From: Xanthomonas bonasiae
GTDB lineage: Bacteria; Pseudomonadota; Gammaproteobacteria; Xanthomonadales; Xanthomonadaceae
Direction: 5' to 3'
DNA length: 64,000 bases
Assembly (NCBI RefSeq): GCF_017163705.1
Contig: NZ_JAFIWB010000002.1
Coordinates: forward strand, 1 to 64,000
Shown: positions 36,832 to 40,881 of the stretch, piece after piece
How positions within the stretch are numbered: the stretch's first letter is position 1
Layout of the letters: the number at the start of each line of letters is the position of its first letter
Program-made: the position numbers and the translations under genes
Notes under the pieces: generated by a model
The model's database searches: none
What the model saw: only the letters and a program-made list of their open reading frames with translations
What the model was told of the DNA's origin: nothing

Positions 36832-37962
36832 ATGAGCGCGCCGCGCTATGGAGCAGTCATGGATTTTTTGAATAATTTAGGTAACTACGCGTTCTTCACG
36901 CTCATCAACAATTTTCTGCGTGATGAGATCGACTATTTTCAATGGTCGTTGCTGATCCGGATGTCGTGGTGGGTGACGGTGACGGCGATGAGCGCGCTGA
37001 CGCTGTGGGTGCTGTTCAAGGGTTTCCGCGTGGTGACTGGCCAGTCGCGCGAGATTGCCATGGACTTGGTGGTGACGGCGCTGCGTTCGGTGCTGATCAT
37101 TGGCGTGGCGATGAGCATGGTGTCTGCTGCCAGGCCCGGTGCAACAGAGAGCGACGGTTTGATGAGCGGTCTGTATTGGCGGCTGACCGACGGGCTGAGC
37201 AGCGCGATCGTCAAGACTGTGACTGGCGACTCGGATAGTCCGTACGAAGCGATCGACAAGAATTTGGCGCTGATGCAGATCGCGCTGACGAGCATCGATC
37301 AGATCAACACGGCCGGCGATGCGGAGCGCGAGAAGGAGAAGGATCGCGCTCGCCTGTTCACGGGTCTGGGAATGGCCGGCCCGGGCGTGGTGGGCGGTTC
37401 GCTGCTGTTGCTGAACAAGCTGGCGATGGCACTGTTCATCGGCTTTGGGCCGCTGTTCATCCTGTGCCTGCTATTTGATGCAACGAAGTCGCTATTCCAG
37501 AAGTGGCTGCTGTACGGGATCGGGACGATGTTCTCGTTGTCGGTATTGAGTTTCACGGTGGGTTTGGCGACGAAGGTGATTGCCGCGGTGGCGGCGGGTT
37601 TTCTGGCCAAGTGGATGGCAGCCAACGGCACCGGCGAAGGCGTAAGCAGCATGGCGTTGCAGCAGGGAGGAATCGGTTTGGTATTGAGTACGCTGATCAT
37701 CACTGCGCCGCCGATGGCGGCATCGTTCTTCCAGGGCACGCTTGGGCAGTTCACGCCGTACTCGGGCTTCGGTTCGCTGGGCAAGGATCCGGCATCGGGG
37801 AAGCCTTATACGCCGCAGGCGCCGACGGCTGGCGATGATGGGAGGTCGAATCGAGTTAATGATGCCACAATGAATACTTATGCAAATATGAATAGAGGGG
37901 CGGAAGGGCAGAACGCGACTTCATCGCCGGGTAGCCGTGGCGCACATAACGATAGGGTTTGA
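36832..37962 (+). CDS. virB6: T4SS inner-membrane channel protein VirB6 with variable tail
   Basis: The 376-residue protein (an internal ATG at 36859 is an alternative start) has several transmembrane helices. These lie near 45-65, 80-102 and four or more between about 175 and 315, as in VirB6/TrbL. VirB6 forms the inner-membrane channel base. Residues up to about 331 (ending PYTPQAP) make a conserved framework, and the last 46 residues are hydrophilic, Asn/Gly/Ser-rich and less GC-rich. Fragments of the same framework recur downstream with different tails (38480, 39392, 40420). The next gene, DUF4189-like, starts five bases after the stop. Confidence 0.92.
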   Translation: MSAPRYGAVMDFLNNLGNYAFFTLINNFLRDEIDYFQWSLLIRMSWWVTVTAMSALTLWVLFKGFRVVTGQSREIAMDLVVTALRSVLIIGVAMSMVSAARPGATESDGLMSGLYWRLTDGLSSAIVKTVTGDSDSPYEAIDKNLALMQIALTSIDQINTAGDAEREKEKDRARLFTGLGMAGPGVVGGSLLLLNKLAMALFIGFGPLFILCLLFDATKSLFQKWLLYGIGTMFSLSVLSFTVGLATKVIAAVAAGFLAKWMAANGTGEGVSSMALQQGGIGLVLSTLIITAPPMAASFFQGTLGQFTPYSGFGSLGKDPASGKPYTPQAPTAGDDGRSNRVNDATMNTYANMNRGAEGQNATSSPGSRGAHNDRV

Positions 37963-37967
37963 CATCT

Positions 37968-38450
37968 ATGAAGAACCGGATTGCTTACACAATCATAGCT
38001 ATGGCAACTCTGGGGGCGCCCTTCACCCTGTTCGGTCAGACTCGTTGTCCTGTGGGAACTCAGGCGGGGAGTGCCCAATGCCTTCCTGACGATGATGTTG
38101 CGCCTTCACGCCCCACCGGCGAATGGATCAAAACTTGGGGGGCTTTGGTTCGATCCAACCAAAGAGGCGGTGCATGGTCTTCTCAGGGGGCCTTCAGTGA
38201 GAATGATGCACGTCAAGACGCTTTAAATAAATGTAGGGCTACCGGTGCTTCCGATTGCGTTGCAGATGCGACCTATTTTAATCAATGTATTGCCGTTGCT
38301 GCATCTAATGAGCCTGGTGTTAATATAAATACGGGTAAAGACAAGGCGACGGCCGGTAAAAGGGCTGTTGCAGATTGTGGAAAGGTTTCAAGCTCTCAGT
38401 GTGTTGTCGTATTTTCAGAGTGCACTGATCCCGTATTTAAGAAGTATTGA
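37968..38450 (+). CDS. Secreted DUF4189-type protein, copy 1
   Basis: The 160-residue protein has a signal peptide ending LFGQ, a Cys motif TRCPVG...SAQCLPDD, and a DUF4189-type domain. In that domain WGAL, a run of residues with regular alanines and cysteines, and NQCIAVA match the family pattern. Eight cysteines suggest a disulfide-bonded periplasmic protein; there is no lipobox. It follows virB6 by five bases and so is the distal gene of the virB operon. DUF4189 has no settled function. Two more copies lie downstream, each after a VirB6-tail fragment. Copy 1 is closer to copy 3 than to copy 2. The composition is lower in GC than virB6. Confidence 0.8.
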   Translation: MKNRIAYTIIAMATLGAPFTLFGQTRCPVGTQAGSAQCLPDDDVAPSRPTGEWIKTWGALVRSNQRGGAWSSQGAFSENDARQDALNKCRATGASDCVADATYFNQCIAVAASNEPGVNINTGKDKATAGKRAVADCGKVSSSQCVVVFSECTDPVFKKY

Positions 38451-38479
38451 TGTACCGGGTTTTAATTATTTAGATTCCG

Positions 38480-38899
38480 TCTTGAGCTTCACGATTGGTT
38501 TGGCGACGAAGGTGACAACTGCGGTGGCGCGGCGGGTTTCGTTGCGAAGTGTGCCGCCCCCAAGGCGAGGGCGTGAGCGCCATGGCCTTGCAGTAATGAG
38601 GGGTCGCGTTGGTTTCGACCGAGCTGACCCTTACAGCCCCGCCGATGGCAGCCGTGTTCTTCCAGGGCACGCTGGGACATTTCAATGCGTATTCGGTCCT
38701 TGGCCAGATTGGCAAGGATCCGGCGACGGAGTGGCCGATGACGCCGCAGGCACCGAATTACGATTCGTCTTCAAGAACCGGTAACGATTATAACACGTCC
38801 CAAAAAACCACTAATCATAGCTCGAGACAGCCGCAATTTGCATCCGACTCTGGATCTCACGCGGGTGGCGGAAAGGTGGGAAAGGTCGATTTGAGCTGA
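38480..38899 (+). pseudogene. virB6 fragment, degenerate, with distinct tail (copy 2)
   Basis: Homology to virB6 begins at the codons for SVLSFTVGLATKV, about 30 bases after the stop of the first DUF4189 gene. It continues, with internal frameshifts and deletions, to the junction TPQAP (38741-38755). A different 47-residue tail then reads in frame to TGA at 38899 (NYDSSSRTGNDYN...GKVGKVDLS). There is no start codon or N-terminal half. The last 290 bases stay open (VSTELTLTAPPMAAVFFQGTL...). It looks like an orphan C-terminal cassette that has decayed in its framework but kept its tail. Confidence 0.85.
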
Positions 38900-38921
38900 T
38901 GTAATTTAGGAGGGGATTGCA

Positions 38922-39395
38922 TTGAAATTTATAATTTATATTTTTTTATGTTTATCTTTTGAGGCTGGTGCGCAAACCGCATGTCCTGTGGGCGTTGCCC
39001 CAGGTAGTGTTCAATGTCTGCCAGATTCGGAATCATCTTCTCAGCCGTCCGGGCCAATAGGTGAATGGATTAAGGCATGGGGAGCTATTGCAAGCTCTTC
39101 TAATGGAGATGTTGGAAGCAGTACAGGTAAATTTTCGGAGCAAGAAGCTAAAGATAACGCGCTGAAAATATGCACTAATCTCGGCAACTCTGATTGTAAA
39201 GTTATGTTTACCTATAAAAATCAGTGCGTAGCCGTTGTTAAAGCCGAGGCGGGTCGCACCGGTGGGAAAATTGTCAGTGGTGCAAGTGTAGAAGATGCTA
39301 AAAAAAAGGCTCTTAATCAGTGCAAAAATTCTTCTGGCGCGGAATGTTCAGTGGTTGGTGCTGACTGCTCAAAGCCTTTCTTTAAGAAGTATTGA
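38922..39395 (+). CDS. Secreted DUF4189-type protein, copy 2
   Basis: The start is a TTG with a strong ribosome site AGGAGGGG six bases upstream. The 157-residue protein has a short signal peptide ending AGAQ and the same layout as copy 1: TACPVG...SVQCLPDS, GEWIKAWGAI, YKNQCVAVV and a C-terminal KPFFKKY. The sequence is clearly more diverged from copies 1 and 3 than they are from each other. It lies 22 bases after the tail of the second virB6 fragment. The gene is AT-rich. It appears intact and expressible if transcription reads through from virB6. Confidence 0.78.
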   Translation: MKFIIYIFLCLSFEAGAQTACPVGVAPGSVQCLPDSESSSQPSGPIGEWIKAWGAIASSSNGDVGSSTGKFSEQEAKDNALKICTNLGNSDCKVMFTYKNQCVAVVKAEAGRTGGKIVSGASVEDAKKKALNQCKNSSGAECSVVGADCSKPFFKKY

Positions 39396-40009
39396 TTCCT
39401 CTCTCTATATTGTTTGATGCAACGAAGCCGCTGTTCCAGAAGTGGCTGCTGTACGGGATCGGGACGATGTTCTCGTTGTCGGTATTGAGTTTCACGGTGG
39501 GTTTGGCAACGAAGGTGATTGCCGCGGTGGCGGCGGGTTTTCTGGCCAAGTGGATGGCAGCCAACGGCACCGGCGAAGGCGTAAGCAGCATGGCGTTGCA
39601 GCAGGGAGGAATCGGTTTGGTATTGAGTACGCTGATCATCACTGCGCCGCCGATGGCGGCATCGTTCTTCCAGGGCACGCTTGGGCAGTTCACGCTGTAC
39701 TCGGGCTTCGGTTCGCTGGGCAAGGATCCGGCGTCCGGGCAGCCTTATACGCCGCAGGCGCCGGCTTGCGATAATTCCACTGCCGATGGTCATGCCACCA
39801 CGGCTCATGTTAATACTAGAAATACTGGTGGCGATTCGAATAACTTTAATGTAGCAAATGCAGGCTCTCGTGGCATAGCTGCTACTGATAAAATATATGA
39901 TCTCAGAGGGTGGGAAGTTGAAAATTATTTTCTTTTTTGCGCTTTCTTTGACTTGGGCGGGCGTTGCTCAATCGCAAACGCGATGCCCAACTGGTTCACA
40001 GGCCGGTAG
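39392..40009 (+). pseudogene. virB6 C-terminal half with third, different tail (copy 3)
   Basis: An open frame (a TTG overlapping the stop of DUF4189 copy 2 could start it) encodes the VirB6 segment from LFDATKPLFQKW onward. By eye it differs from virB6 at only about eight of some 350 bases up to the junction PYTPQAP (39763). The tail then changes completely (ACDNSTADGHATTAH...). The frame runs on into the start of the next DUF4189 gene, probably because an indel near the A/T-rich stretch around 39890 removed the original stop. The N-terminal half of VirB6 is missing, so it is unlikely to work alone. Confidence 0.85.
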
Positions 40010-40393
40010 CGCTCAGTGCTTGCCTGATGATGAAGGCTCTGCTCCACCTCGTCCCACGGGGGAGTGGATTAAAACTTGGGGTGCCATTGCGAACGCTGAT
40101 AATACTACTGAGGCTTGGGCTTCAGTTAAAATGTTGTCAAAAAAGATGCGGAAGATGACGCCCTTGATCAGTGTAGGTCGGCTGAATATAAGGGGTGTGT
40201 GATAACTTTTACTTATAAATCAATGCGTTGCTATAGCTGCTCCTGATAATGGAAGAACACAGGGAGGTGTGGCTGGTAGAGGGGATTTGGCGCTGGCAAA
40301 GTCATCTGCTATCGAGATATGTAAAAAAATGGTGGTTCTGGATGTTCCATAATTTACAGTGAGTGTACGGATCCAGTATTCAAAAAATTTTAA
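39918..40393 (+). pseudogene. DUF4189-type gene, copy 3, frameshifted
   Basis: It probably starts at TTG 39918 behind GAGGGTGGG, as copy 2 does at TTG. The signal peptide ends AQSQ, followed by TRCPTGSQAGSAQCLPDDE and GEWIKTWGAI, close to copy 1. The frame then breaks three times. One base is lost in the A-run at about 40139-40144, two bases in the AAA at about 40216, and one base in the A7 run at about 40322. Correcting these restores the full DUF4189 pattern to a TAA at 40391. All breaks fall in A-tracts, so decay or assembly error are both possible. Confidence 0.8.
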
Positions 40394-40419
40394 ATCTGAC
40401 ACTTGAGCGTTTTGGGCGT

Positions 40420-40790
40420 TCAATGGTCTCTGTTTATGCGTATGCCCTGCTGGGTAACGGTAAGGGAGATGAGCGCGCTGGCGTTGTGTATGCTGTTCAA
40501 GGCTATGATGTGTTGACGGGCCAGTCGCGCGAGATCGCGATGGATCTGTTGATGACGGCGCTGCGTTGGATGCTGATCATCGACCAGGCGATGAGCATGA
40601 TGTCTGCTGCCAGGCCTGGTGCAACATAGAGCGACGGTCTGATGAGCGGTCTGTATTGGCGGCTGACCGACGGGCTGAGCAGCGCGATCGTCAAGACTGT
40701 GCCTGGCGACTCGGACAGTCCGTACGACGCGATCGAAAAAGAACCTGTTTATGGTGCAGATTGCGATAATGAGCGCCGACTCCATCCAAG
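40420..40790 (+). pseudogene. virB6 N-terminal fragment (copy 4)
   Basis: The DNA matches virB6 from the codons for QWSLLIRM (36939) through TGQSREIAMDL, MSAARPGAT and SGLYWRLTDGLSSAIVKTV to about MQIA. It carries a one-base deletion near 40500 and an in-frame stop (TAG for GAG at about 40627). It is the mirror of the other fragments: N-terminal part only, located last. It marks the right end of the cassette array. Confidence 0.85.
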
Positions 40791-40881
40791 CGCCCGTTAA
40801 CGCGCTCGAGCGGCGCTGCGGGCCGTGGTGATCCAATAGTTGCCTGCTTGCTATTTCCCAATTCATAGGCGCCGTGTGCGC

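Follow-up and report, generated by a model that had tools for sequence, protein, structure and literature searches.

Matched VirB6 tails and DUF4189 partners are exchanged together between related species, suggesting a badge-and-reader system that could let cells spare their own kind

We analyzed a stretch of 64,000 nucleotides from Xanthomonas bonasiae (contig NZ_JAFIWB010000002.1, positions 1 to 64,000; the window), in which our reading finds a chromosomal virD4/virB operon of a type IV secretion system (T4SS). Its last gene, virB6, encodes a channel subunit and is followed by an array of virB6 pieces and genes of the DUF4189 family. By comparison of sequences across loci, the variable C-terminal tail of VirB6 and the DUF4189 protein encoded by the next gene are matched pairs, and the stretch from the end of the virB6 framework to the downstream flank, which holds the tail and the DUF4189 gene, is exchanged as a single cassette. 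These data suggest that related species swap each tail together with its partner and that the pairs make up a system of badge and reader through which a cell could spare its own kind. We give about an even chance to the reading that the block is a polymorphic recognition (badge/reader) module of the bacteria-killing T4SS known as X-T4SS, in which DUF4189 would act as a periplasmic exclusion protein against matching tails.

The comparison drew on 78 virB6 loci with flanks from a genome-contig search, 20 further genome stretches and the window, scanned with hidden Markov models (HMMs) built for this analysis; L056, L057 and L115 were excluded as repeats of genomes already included. Tail statistics were obtained from 127 modules (36 of them orphan) in 95 loci, a module being a virB6 piece that reaches model position 300 and is followed at a spacing of -5 to 400 nt by a DUF4189 gene covering positions 20-144, a filter that omits broken modules such as cassette 3 of the window. 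When partners were shuffled within the 24 multi-module loci, none of 2000 permutations reached the observed agreement between tail and DUF4189, and because shuffling stays within a locus, species kinship is removed from this test. The same was true of 1000 within-locus shuffles for each of four ways of trimming, and with the conserved tail end removed (0/1000). Thus tail type and DUF4189 type co-vary across loci, which was the check proposed in an earlier note on this DNA that had been made from the window alone.

Similarity thresholds gave the same picture (tails of at least 30 amino acids were used here and in the framework control). All 37 inter-locus pairs with a tail similarity of at least 0.42 had a DUF4189 similarity of at least 0.5, vs 221 of 7220 among all pairs, showing that tail and partner do not assort independently; the cut of 0.42 was set after the first permutation results had been seen, and module pairs are not independent of each other. 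Where DUF4189 similarity was at least 0.7, the tail reached at least 0.35 in 26 of 27 pairs and was never below 0.25. In multi-module loci with a tail partner score of at least 0.35, that partner also carried the closest-matching DUF4189 within its locus 35 times out of 40 (18.1 expected). With no threshold applied, best-partner agreement was 78/118 by tail (52.3 expected) and 59/118 by framework (51.8 expected). Among the 128 pairs with a framework identity of at least 0.85, similarity of the tail was correlated with that of DUF4189 (rho 0.63).

Tail and DUF4189 gene are mostly tens of nucleotides apart, and co-inheritance by closeness is possible. The virB6 3' end could then be a recombination hotspot for effector/immunity pairs with which tail and DUF4189 hitch-hike without any functional bond, as might be read from the X-Tfe effector genes between modules in L036 and L040 and the lipase gene in L114. 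However, the last 120 nt of the virB6 framework, which are also near, did not significantly track DUF4189 (360/2000) or the tail (147/2000) within loci, no pair with strongly similar DUF4189 proteins has unlike tails by the cuts given above, and only 20 loci, the window array not among them, have gaps of more than 1 kb separating modules. We regard mere linkage as improbable.

The array order proposed for the window by the earlier note was confirmed, with its coordinates, by reading, repeat search and HMM scans. Full-length virB6 with tail 1 is followed by DUF4189 copy 1, a decayed 3' piece of virB6 with tail 2 and the intact DUF4189 copy 2; next come a near-identical 3' piece with tail 3, DUF4189 copy 3, which is frameshifted, and lastly an N-terminal piece of virB6:

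36832..37962, + strand: full-length virB6 (Pfam TrbL/VirB6, E 3.2e-24), with the conserved framework reaching about 37823 and hypervariable tail 1 beyond it
37824..37959, + strand: tail 1, on the full-length virB6; homology to related virB6 ends at 37823
37968..38450, + strand: DUF4189 copy 1, the predicted secreted Cys-rich partner of tail 1 (Pfam PF13827, E 2.9e-15)
38479..38754, + strand: orphan virB6 3' piece 2, about 70% identical in DNA to a related virB6 and with decay on the 5' side
38755..38899, + strand: tail 2, resembling tails of full virB6 in L042 and L039
38922..39395, + strand: DUF4189 copy 2, an intact orphan partner (Pfam PF13827, E 8.1e-22)
39392..39765, + strand: orphan virB6 3' piece 3, differing little from the full copy (99% over 300 nt; 94% protein identity)
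39766..39917, + strand: tail 3, without a stop of its own; its open reading frame continues to 40009, into DUF4189 copy 3
39918..40393, + strand: DUF4189 copy 3, a frameshifted pseudogene (three HMM pieces in different frames)
40418..40743, + strand: N-terminal piece of virB6 that closes the array (direct repeats D3 and D5)

DUF4189 copies 1 and 2 score above the PF13827 cut-off (57 and 78 bits vs 25), and direct reading places the start of copy 2 at a TTG downstream of an AGGAGG motif. The wider protein match around piece 2 (38393-38755) contains 7 stops, and the N-terminal piece is 80% identical over 40495-40743, with one stop, and 56% identical over 40418-40513. DNA homology to the related virB6 of L037 ends at 37823, 38754 and 39765, at most 2 nt from the codons at which the framework had been said to stop each time. 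The lower GC content claimed for tails and partners was borne out (tails 0.44-0.52 and DUF4189 genes 0.43-0.50, vs 0.59-0.63 in the framework; the window has 0.63), as was the frameshift of copy 3, which is split over the three HMM pieces. The description of the three tails as unrelated did not hold, since tails 1 and 3 both carry GSRG.A near their end, and this motif is widespread in tails: a semi-conserved end, G-x-[RKL]-[GFYAV]-(x)-A, was found in 64 of 119 tails, vs a mean of 2.3 in shuffled tails. Across loci, tails are mostly 40-60 residues long, rich in G/S/A/T/P and nearly without Cys and Trp.

Evidence for exchange came from pairs of related loci. Many virB6 pairs have frameworks that are 97-99% identical, DUF4189 proteins at about 50% and tails that are unlike. 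Among 18 locus pairs compared by blastn, L041/L042, L037/L039 and L052/L053 showed 93-95% DNA homology up to the framework end; homology was lost or weak over tail and DUF4189 and returned at 90-92.5% within 106-327 nt behind DUF4189. In pairs of the same or similar type (L037/L038, L114/L116, L096/L099, L124/L126 and L046/L047), homology was kept through the block, and in pairs of long-array loci it rejoined at varied places. Modules were also found to be shared between orphan and full positions. The orphan of L096 and the full copy of L094 have a tail similarity of 1.00 and a DUF4189 similarity of 0.98, with 93.5% DNA identity over 1375 nt, within surroundings of 10.8 kb at 81% identity; likewise, the orphan of L079 matches the full copy of L080 (tail 0.93, DUF4189 0.97; 93.6% DNA identity over 1211 nt).

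The cassettes of the window could be traced in the same way. Tail 1 and DUF4189 copy 1 both have their best matches in L036, L037, L038 and L040 (tail 0.43-0.51). Tail 2 matches the full-virB6 tails of L042 (0.48) and L039 (0.38), and copy 2 is best matched in the same two loci (0.79 and 0.65, respectively). Tail 3 matches the full virB6 of L043 (0.43) and the orphan of L040 (0.40), where the readable N-terminal part of copy 3 also finds its best matches (0.72 and 0.68, respectively). The tail scores are moderate (0.38-0.51), suggesting that the types are shared but have diverged. Every cassette type of the window is thus found on a full-length virB6 of other Xanthomonas genomes, which fits the tail-switching reservoir suggested by the earlier note. 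Simple decay of a tandem duplication, with no tail replacement at the expressed virB6, had been named there as the opposing outcome; we reject it, because cassettes were replaced at full virB6 with both flanks conserved in at least three pairs and because the window types match different genomes.

Pairing and exchange rest on these comparisons, whereas binding, localization, the direction of action (trans or cis) and exclusion are what we infer from them. We propose that the C-terminus of the VirB6 channel subunit is an exchangeable, disordered tail and that the next gene encodes the matching secreted Cys-rich DUF4189 protein. In the periplasm, DUF4189 would bind the matching tail of an attacking neighbor's VirB6, and delivery would be stopped. 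The first DUF4189 would guard against siblings and the orphan copies against relatives with other tails, so that the array could serve both as a protection repertoire and as a source for tail switching. We propose exclusion in the recipient periplasm because the gene sits at the position of an exclusion gene, the partners are polymorphic and matched, orphans are retained, and xac2611, the gene after virB6 in X. citri, is on the virB operon transcript (PMC7286519); xac2611 is taken as DUF4189 from its gene position, not its sequence.

Exclusion genes are reported typically to adjoin virB6, trbL or traG (PMC8923210), and the exclusion systems that act on TraG are described as specific for the cognate VirB6-like protein of the partner cell (PMC8923210, PMC12624023). 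The block resembles the entry exclusion systems (TraG/TraS of F, TraG/Eex of SXT/R391 and IncC, TrbK of IncP, Eex of IncN) in that the gene of a small envelope protein lies beside virB6/traG/trbL. It differs in that the window T4SS is a protein-secreting, bactericidal one, that tails and partners lie in cassette arrays, and that action in trans is putative. Unlike TraS, Eex and TrbK, DUF4189 proteins are mostly without a membrane anchor or lipobox and have one hydrophobic N-terminal segment that resembles a signal peptide; a crude motif scan found a lipobox-like motif in only 9 of 206. No kinship of DUF4189 to a known exclusion family was found, Pfam giving only DUF4189 and NCBIfam no match.

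An anti-fratricide role is proposed because X. citri cells without several X-Tfe/X-Tfi pairs survive wild-type siblings: wild-type X. citri is reported to be unable to kill such sisters, and the authors posit a still-to-be-characterized protection (PMC10933484). In our tentative extension of the exclusion reading, to which we give a little less than an even chance, the VirB6 tail is the badge and DUF4189 the reader of a cassette-switched kin recognition that gates the whole effector cocktail. This would be a sibling-sparing mechanism of the X-T4SS independent of effector-specific immunity, with the orphans as a memory of past or neighboring badges. It would be a candidate answer to the question, published in 2024, of how X-T4SS cells escape sibling killing once effector immunity is removed (PMC10933484), and it would, if true, extend entry exclusion from conjugation to contact killing. 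If true, a secretion channel subunit also evolves like a polymorphic toxin, with a repertoire that can be read from genomes. DUF4189 is a domain of unknown function that the pairing puts into a context; no paper joining it with type IV secretion was found in our search of open-access papers, which covered no preprints. Four virB6 copies have been noted in X. euvesicatoria 85-10, and the accessible text of that report makes no comment on tails or partners (PMC10432156).

The AlphaFold model of VirB6 matches TrwI/VirB6 of R388 (8rt9; Foldseek E 2.1e-6, prob 1.00), and a PDB profile search matched TrwI at E 1.9e-13. In the R388 structure, residues 1-272 of the 342 of TrwI are built, and only two helices are described across the inner membrane (PMC9259494), so the tail would be periplasmic, on the same side as DUF4189. 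Residues 334-367 of VirB6 have a pLDDT below 50, and tail 1 is predicted to be disordered. The predicted model of DUF4189 (pLDDT 87) has its best Foldseek match in Rv1813c of M. tuberculosis (7nhz; prob 1.00, E 0.013, TM 0.46/0.60), which a profile search also found at E 5e-5; single-sequence search gave no convincing solved homologue. Rv1813c has a DUF4189 domain according to its authors, and differs in its reported role, which is on host-cell mitochondria and not in a T4SS (PMC10269737). Across 68 aligned DUF4189 members, eight Cys and one Trp never vary.

In the toxin systems CDI (CdiA-CT/CdiI), Rhs and Maf, a full-length gene is followed by orphan C-terminal pieces with cognate partners, which are exchanged beside a common framework. 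The orphan 3' modules with cognate partners behind full-length virB6, and their exchange beside a common framework, are alike, and the VirB6 tail could be delivered and itself be harmful, with DUF4189 as the immunity protein. However, the carrier here is a channel subunit, and its variable end is a short tail of the composition given above, predicted disordered in tail 1 and without an enzyme domain; Pfam scans found no domain in virB6 other than TrbL, tail included. Moreover, the known effectors of the system carry XVIPCD (PF20410) and are encoded by separate genes, and the Pfam scan did not find this domain in the window virB6 or its pieces. We therefore consider it unlikely, by a wide margin, that the tail is a toxin. 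X-Tfe/X-Tfi genes share with the modules some of the same loci, and the X-Tfi XAC2610 is also periplasm-directed (PMC10933484); X-Tfi are reported to be dedicated to cis-intoxication, not to siblings (PMC10933484). Tandem amplification that includes a virB6 homologue in a T4SS locus is described for trwJ-trwI-trwH (VirB5-B6-B7) of Bartonella Trw (PMC2883598), where, unlike here, diversification concerns mainly trwJ and trwL for host-cell binding and the accessible text describes no cognate secreted partner (PMC2883598).

DUF4189 was found by HMM scan shortly behind virB6 in nearly all loci, from Xanthomonas, Stenotrophomonas, Lysobacter, Luteibacter and relatives; the loci were picked by virB6 similarity and are uninformative on DUF4189 elsewhere. 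Among the 95 DUF4189-containing loci that were tallied, the gene is single in 41 and occurs in two to eleven copies in 54. Many genera share the layout of the window array, suggesting that it is more than chance. Within Xanthomonas, virB6 is present in 18 of 20 genomes, and those 18, with no others, also carry DUF4189. At family level, virB6 was found in 69 of 158 genomes (some with pieces only) and T4SS-type DUF4189 in 57, with both in 56, virB6 only in 13 and DUF4189 only in one, a weak case. Looking for joint loss of tail and DUF4189, we inspected virB6 in 10 of the 13 genomes with virB6 only; in some the gene stops shortly past the framework, and in others a long tail is kept. In the assembly of G012, VirB4, VirB10 and four intact DUF4189 genes are present and a full virB6 is missing. 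DUF4189 as a free-standing immunity in T4SS-less genomes was not found in this sample, the copy of G027 being broken.

We then asked what is kept in the orphan copies. A DUF4189 counted as intact by HMM coverage has one frame over model positions 20-140; on this measure 92 of 92 copies behind a full virB6 are intact, one of them (L113) with a stop near its end, and 120 of 160 orphan copies are. The 62 virB6 pieces reach the 3' end in 52 cases, the 5' end in 5 and both in 2 (broken near-full copies). Orphan virB6 DNA has 67 frame disruptions in 22.3 kb, spread over 35 of 82 pieces, though the contrast with DUF4189 is weakened by different counting methods for the two. In 18 loci there are at least 3 DUF4189 genes and no HMM-detected 3' piece of virB6. 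For DUF4189 pairs at or above 62% identity and with a dS above 0.05, the median dN/dS was 0.142 for orphan-orphan (n=40), 0.134 for first-orphan (n=21) and 0.091 for first-first pairs (n=11), a comparison weakened in that orphan values include pre-orphan time and many dS are saturated. A hydrophobic N-terminal segment is present in 90/91 first and 112/117 orphan copies. A ribosome-site-like motif precedes 65/91 first and 67/117 orphan copies, vs 142/1014 interior control codons; the start with the best motif was chosen for genes and not for control codons, so this comparison favors the genes. From sequence, then, the DUF4189 part looks selected, and the virB6 piece resembles a handle or relic.

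The main rival to tail-specific exclusion is a role in cis, in which DUF4189 helps to assemble the cell's own channel, or serves as its plug or gate, and binds the VirB6 tail of that channel; contact would make the two co-evolve, and the orphan cassettes would be passive leftovers of recombination. Consistent with this, virB6 is present in 56 of 57 DUF4189-positive genomes, the first copy is intact in 92 of 92 by HMM coverage (91 counting the stop in L113), it is co-transcribed with the operon in X. citri (PMC7286519), and the broken L113 copy lies in a genome without VirB4/VirB10 of the X-T4SS. On the other side are the 120 intact orphans with their low dN/dS and ribosome-site-like motifs, the 18 loci just described and the 13 of 69 virB6-positive genomes that manage without DUF4189; a cis role alone explains neither orphan retention nor a pressure to diversify. 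We consider it possible but doubtful, at something over one chance in four. A further explanation is that an outside pressure, e.g. phages that use the T4SS, drives tail variation and that DUF4189 shields its own tail. Tail and partner are indeed jointly hypervariable, but retained orphan DUF4189 would be unexplained, and we consider this the least probable of the alternatives.

Several observations weigh against exclusion by matched tails. The rank correlation between tail and DUF4189 is weak, 0.06 over all pairs and 0.18 among 4095 full-full pairs; over all pairs this is because most tails are mutually unlike. At a DUF4189 similarity of at least 0.6, the tail reaches at least 0.35 in only 36 of 61 pairs and is below 0.25 in 5, and when restricted to tails below 0.4 the permutation result weakens to 10/1000. 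Some of the 18 loci without a 3' piece, L078 and L124 at least, retain short virB6 DNA remnants. One first-first pair, whose dS is 0.03 (ratio 0.68), fell below the dN/dS filter. The 13 virB6-positive genomes without DUF4189 count here too, and T4SS-type DUF4189 is nearly absent without virB6 (1 weak case in 89 virB6-negative genomes). A repertoire against strangers might well occur in T4SS-less cells too, suggesting that the role, if in trans, is kin protection, or else that it is in cis. G027, a draft assembly, was the only genome examined that has virB6, lacks a VirB10 match and gives just distant, partial VirB4 matches; its DUF4189 carries an in-frame stop near the end. Finally, the topology is disputed: according to older reporter work that PMC6536674 cites, the C-terminus of VirB6 is cytosolic in Agrobacterium and Brucella.

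L101 and L111 have eleven and nine DUF4189 genes behind short-tailed virB6 (21 and 25 amino acids, respectively), with no HMM-detected virB6 pieces between, and a second full or near-full virB6 is present in L040, L076, L114 and L122. Between modules, L036 and L040 carry X-Tfe genes (XVIPCD, PF20410) with peptidoglycan-binding domains, each behind a possible immunity gene; L114 carries a lipase gene, also behind a possible immunity gene; and L040 carries an IS5 transposase. These effector genes, seen in the minority of the gaps of more than 1 kb that were scanned for content, suggest that whole blocks may sometimes travel together. In L124 (G026) and in G012, virB6/DUF4189 modules are apparently far from virB4 of the same genome, suggesting that modules need not be linked to the other operon genes.

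No relative of virB6 was found in 72,556 plasmid records at E 1e-5, and we rejected a plasmid origin of virB6 on this result. Three tandem DUF4189 genes without an annotated virB6 beside them are present in L137 (Rhizobium plasmid pMK-2, CP041205, 11252-13034). Outside the array, the source genome of the window has another DUF4189 gene, a more distant one (L003; G000:C17:64544-64792), and DUF4189 matches similar to this gene, with 254-amino-acid frames, are found in G002 and G007. The same genome also carries a second, distant T4SS of the VirB4/VirB10 type (36% and 29% identity) at G000:C89, about 112471-117716.

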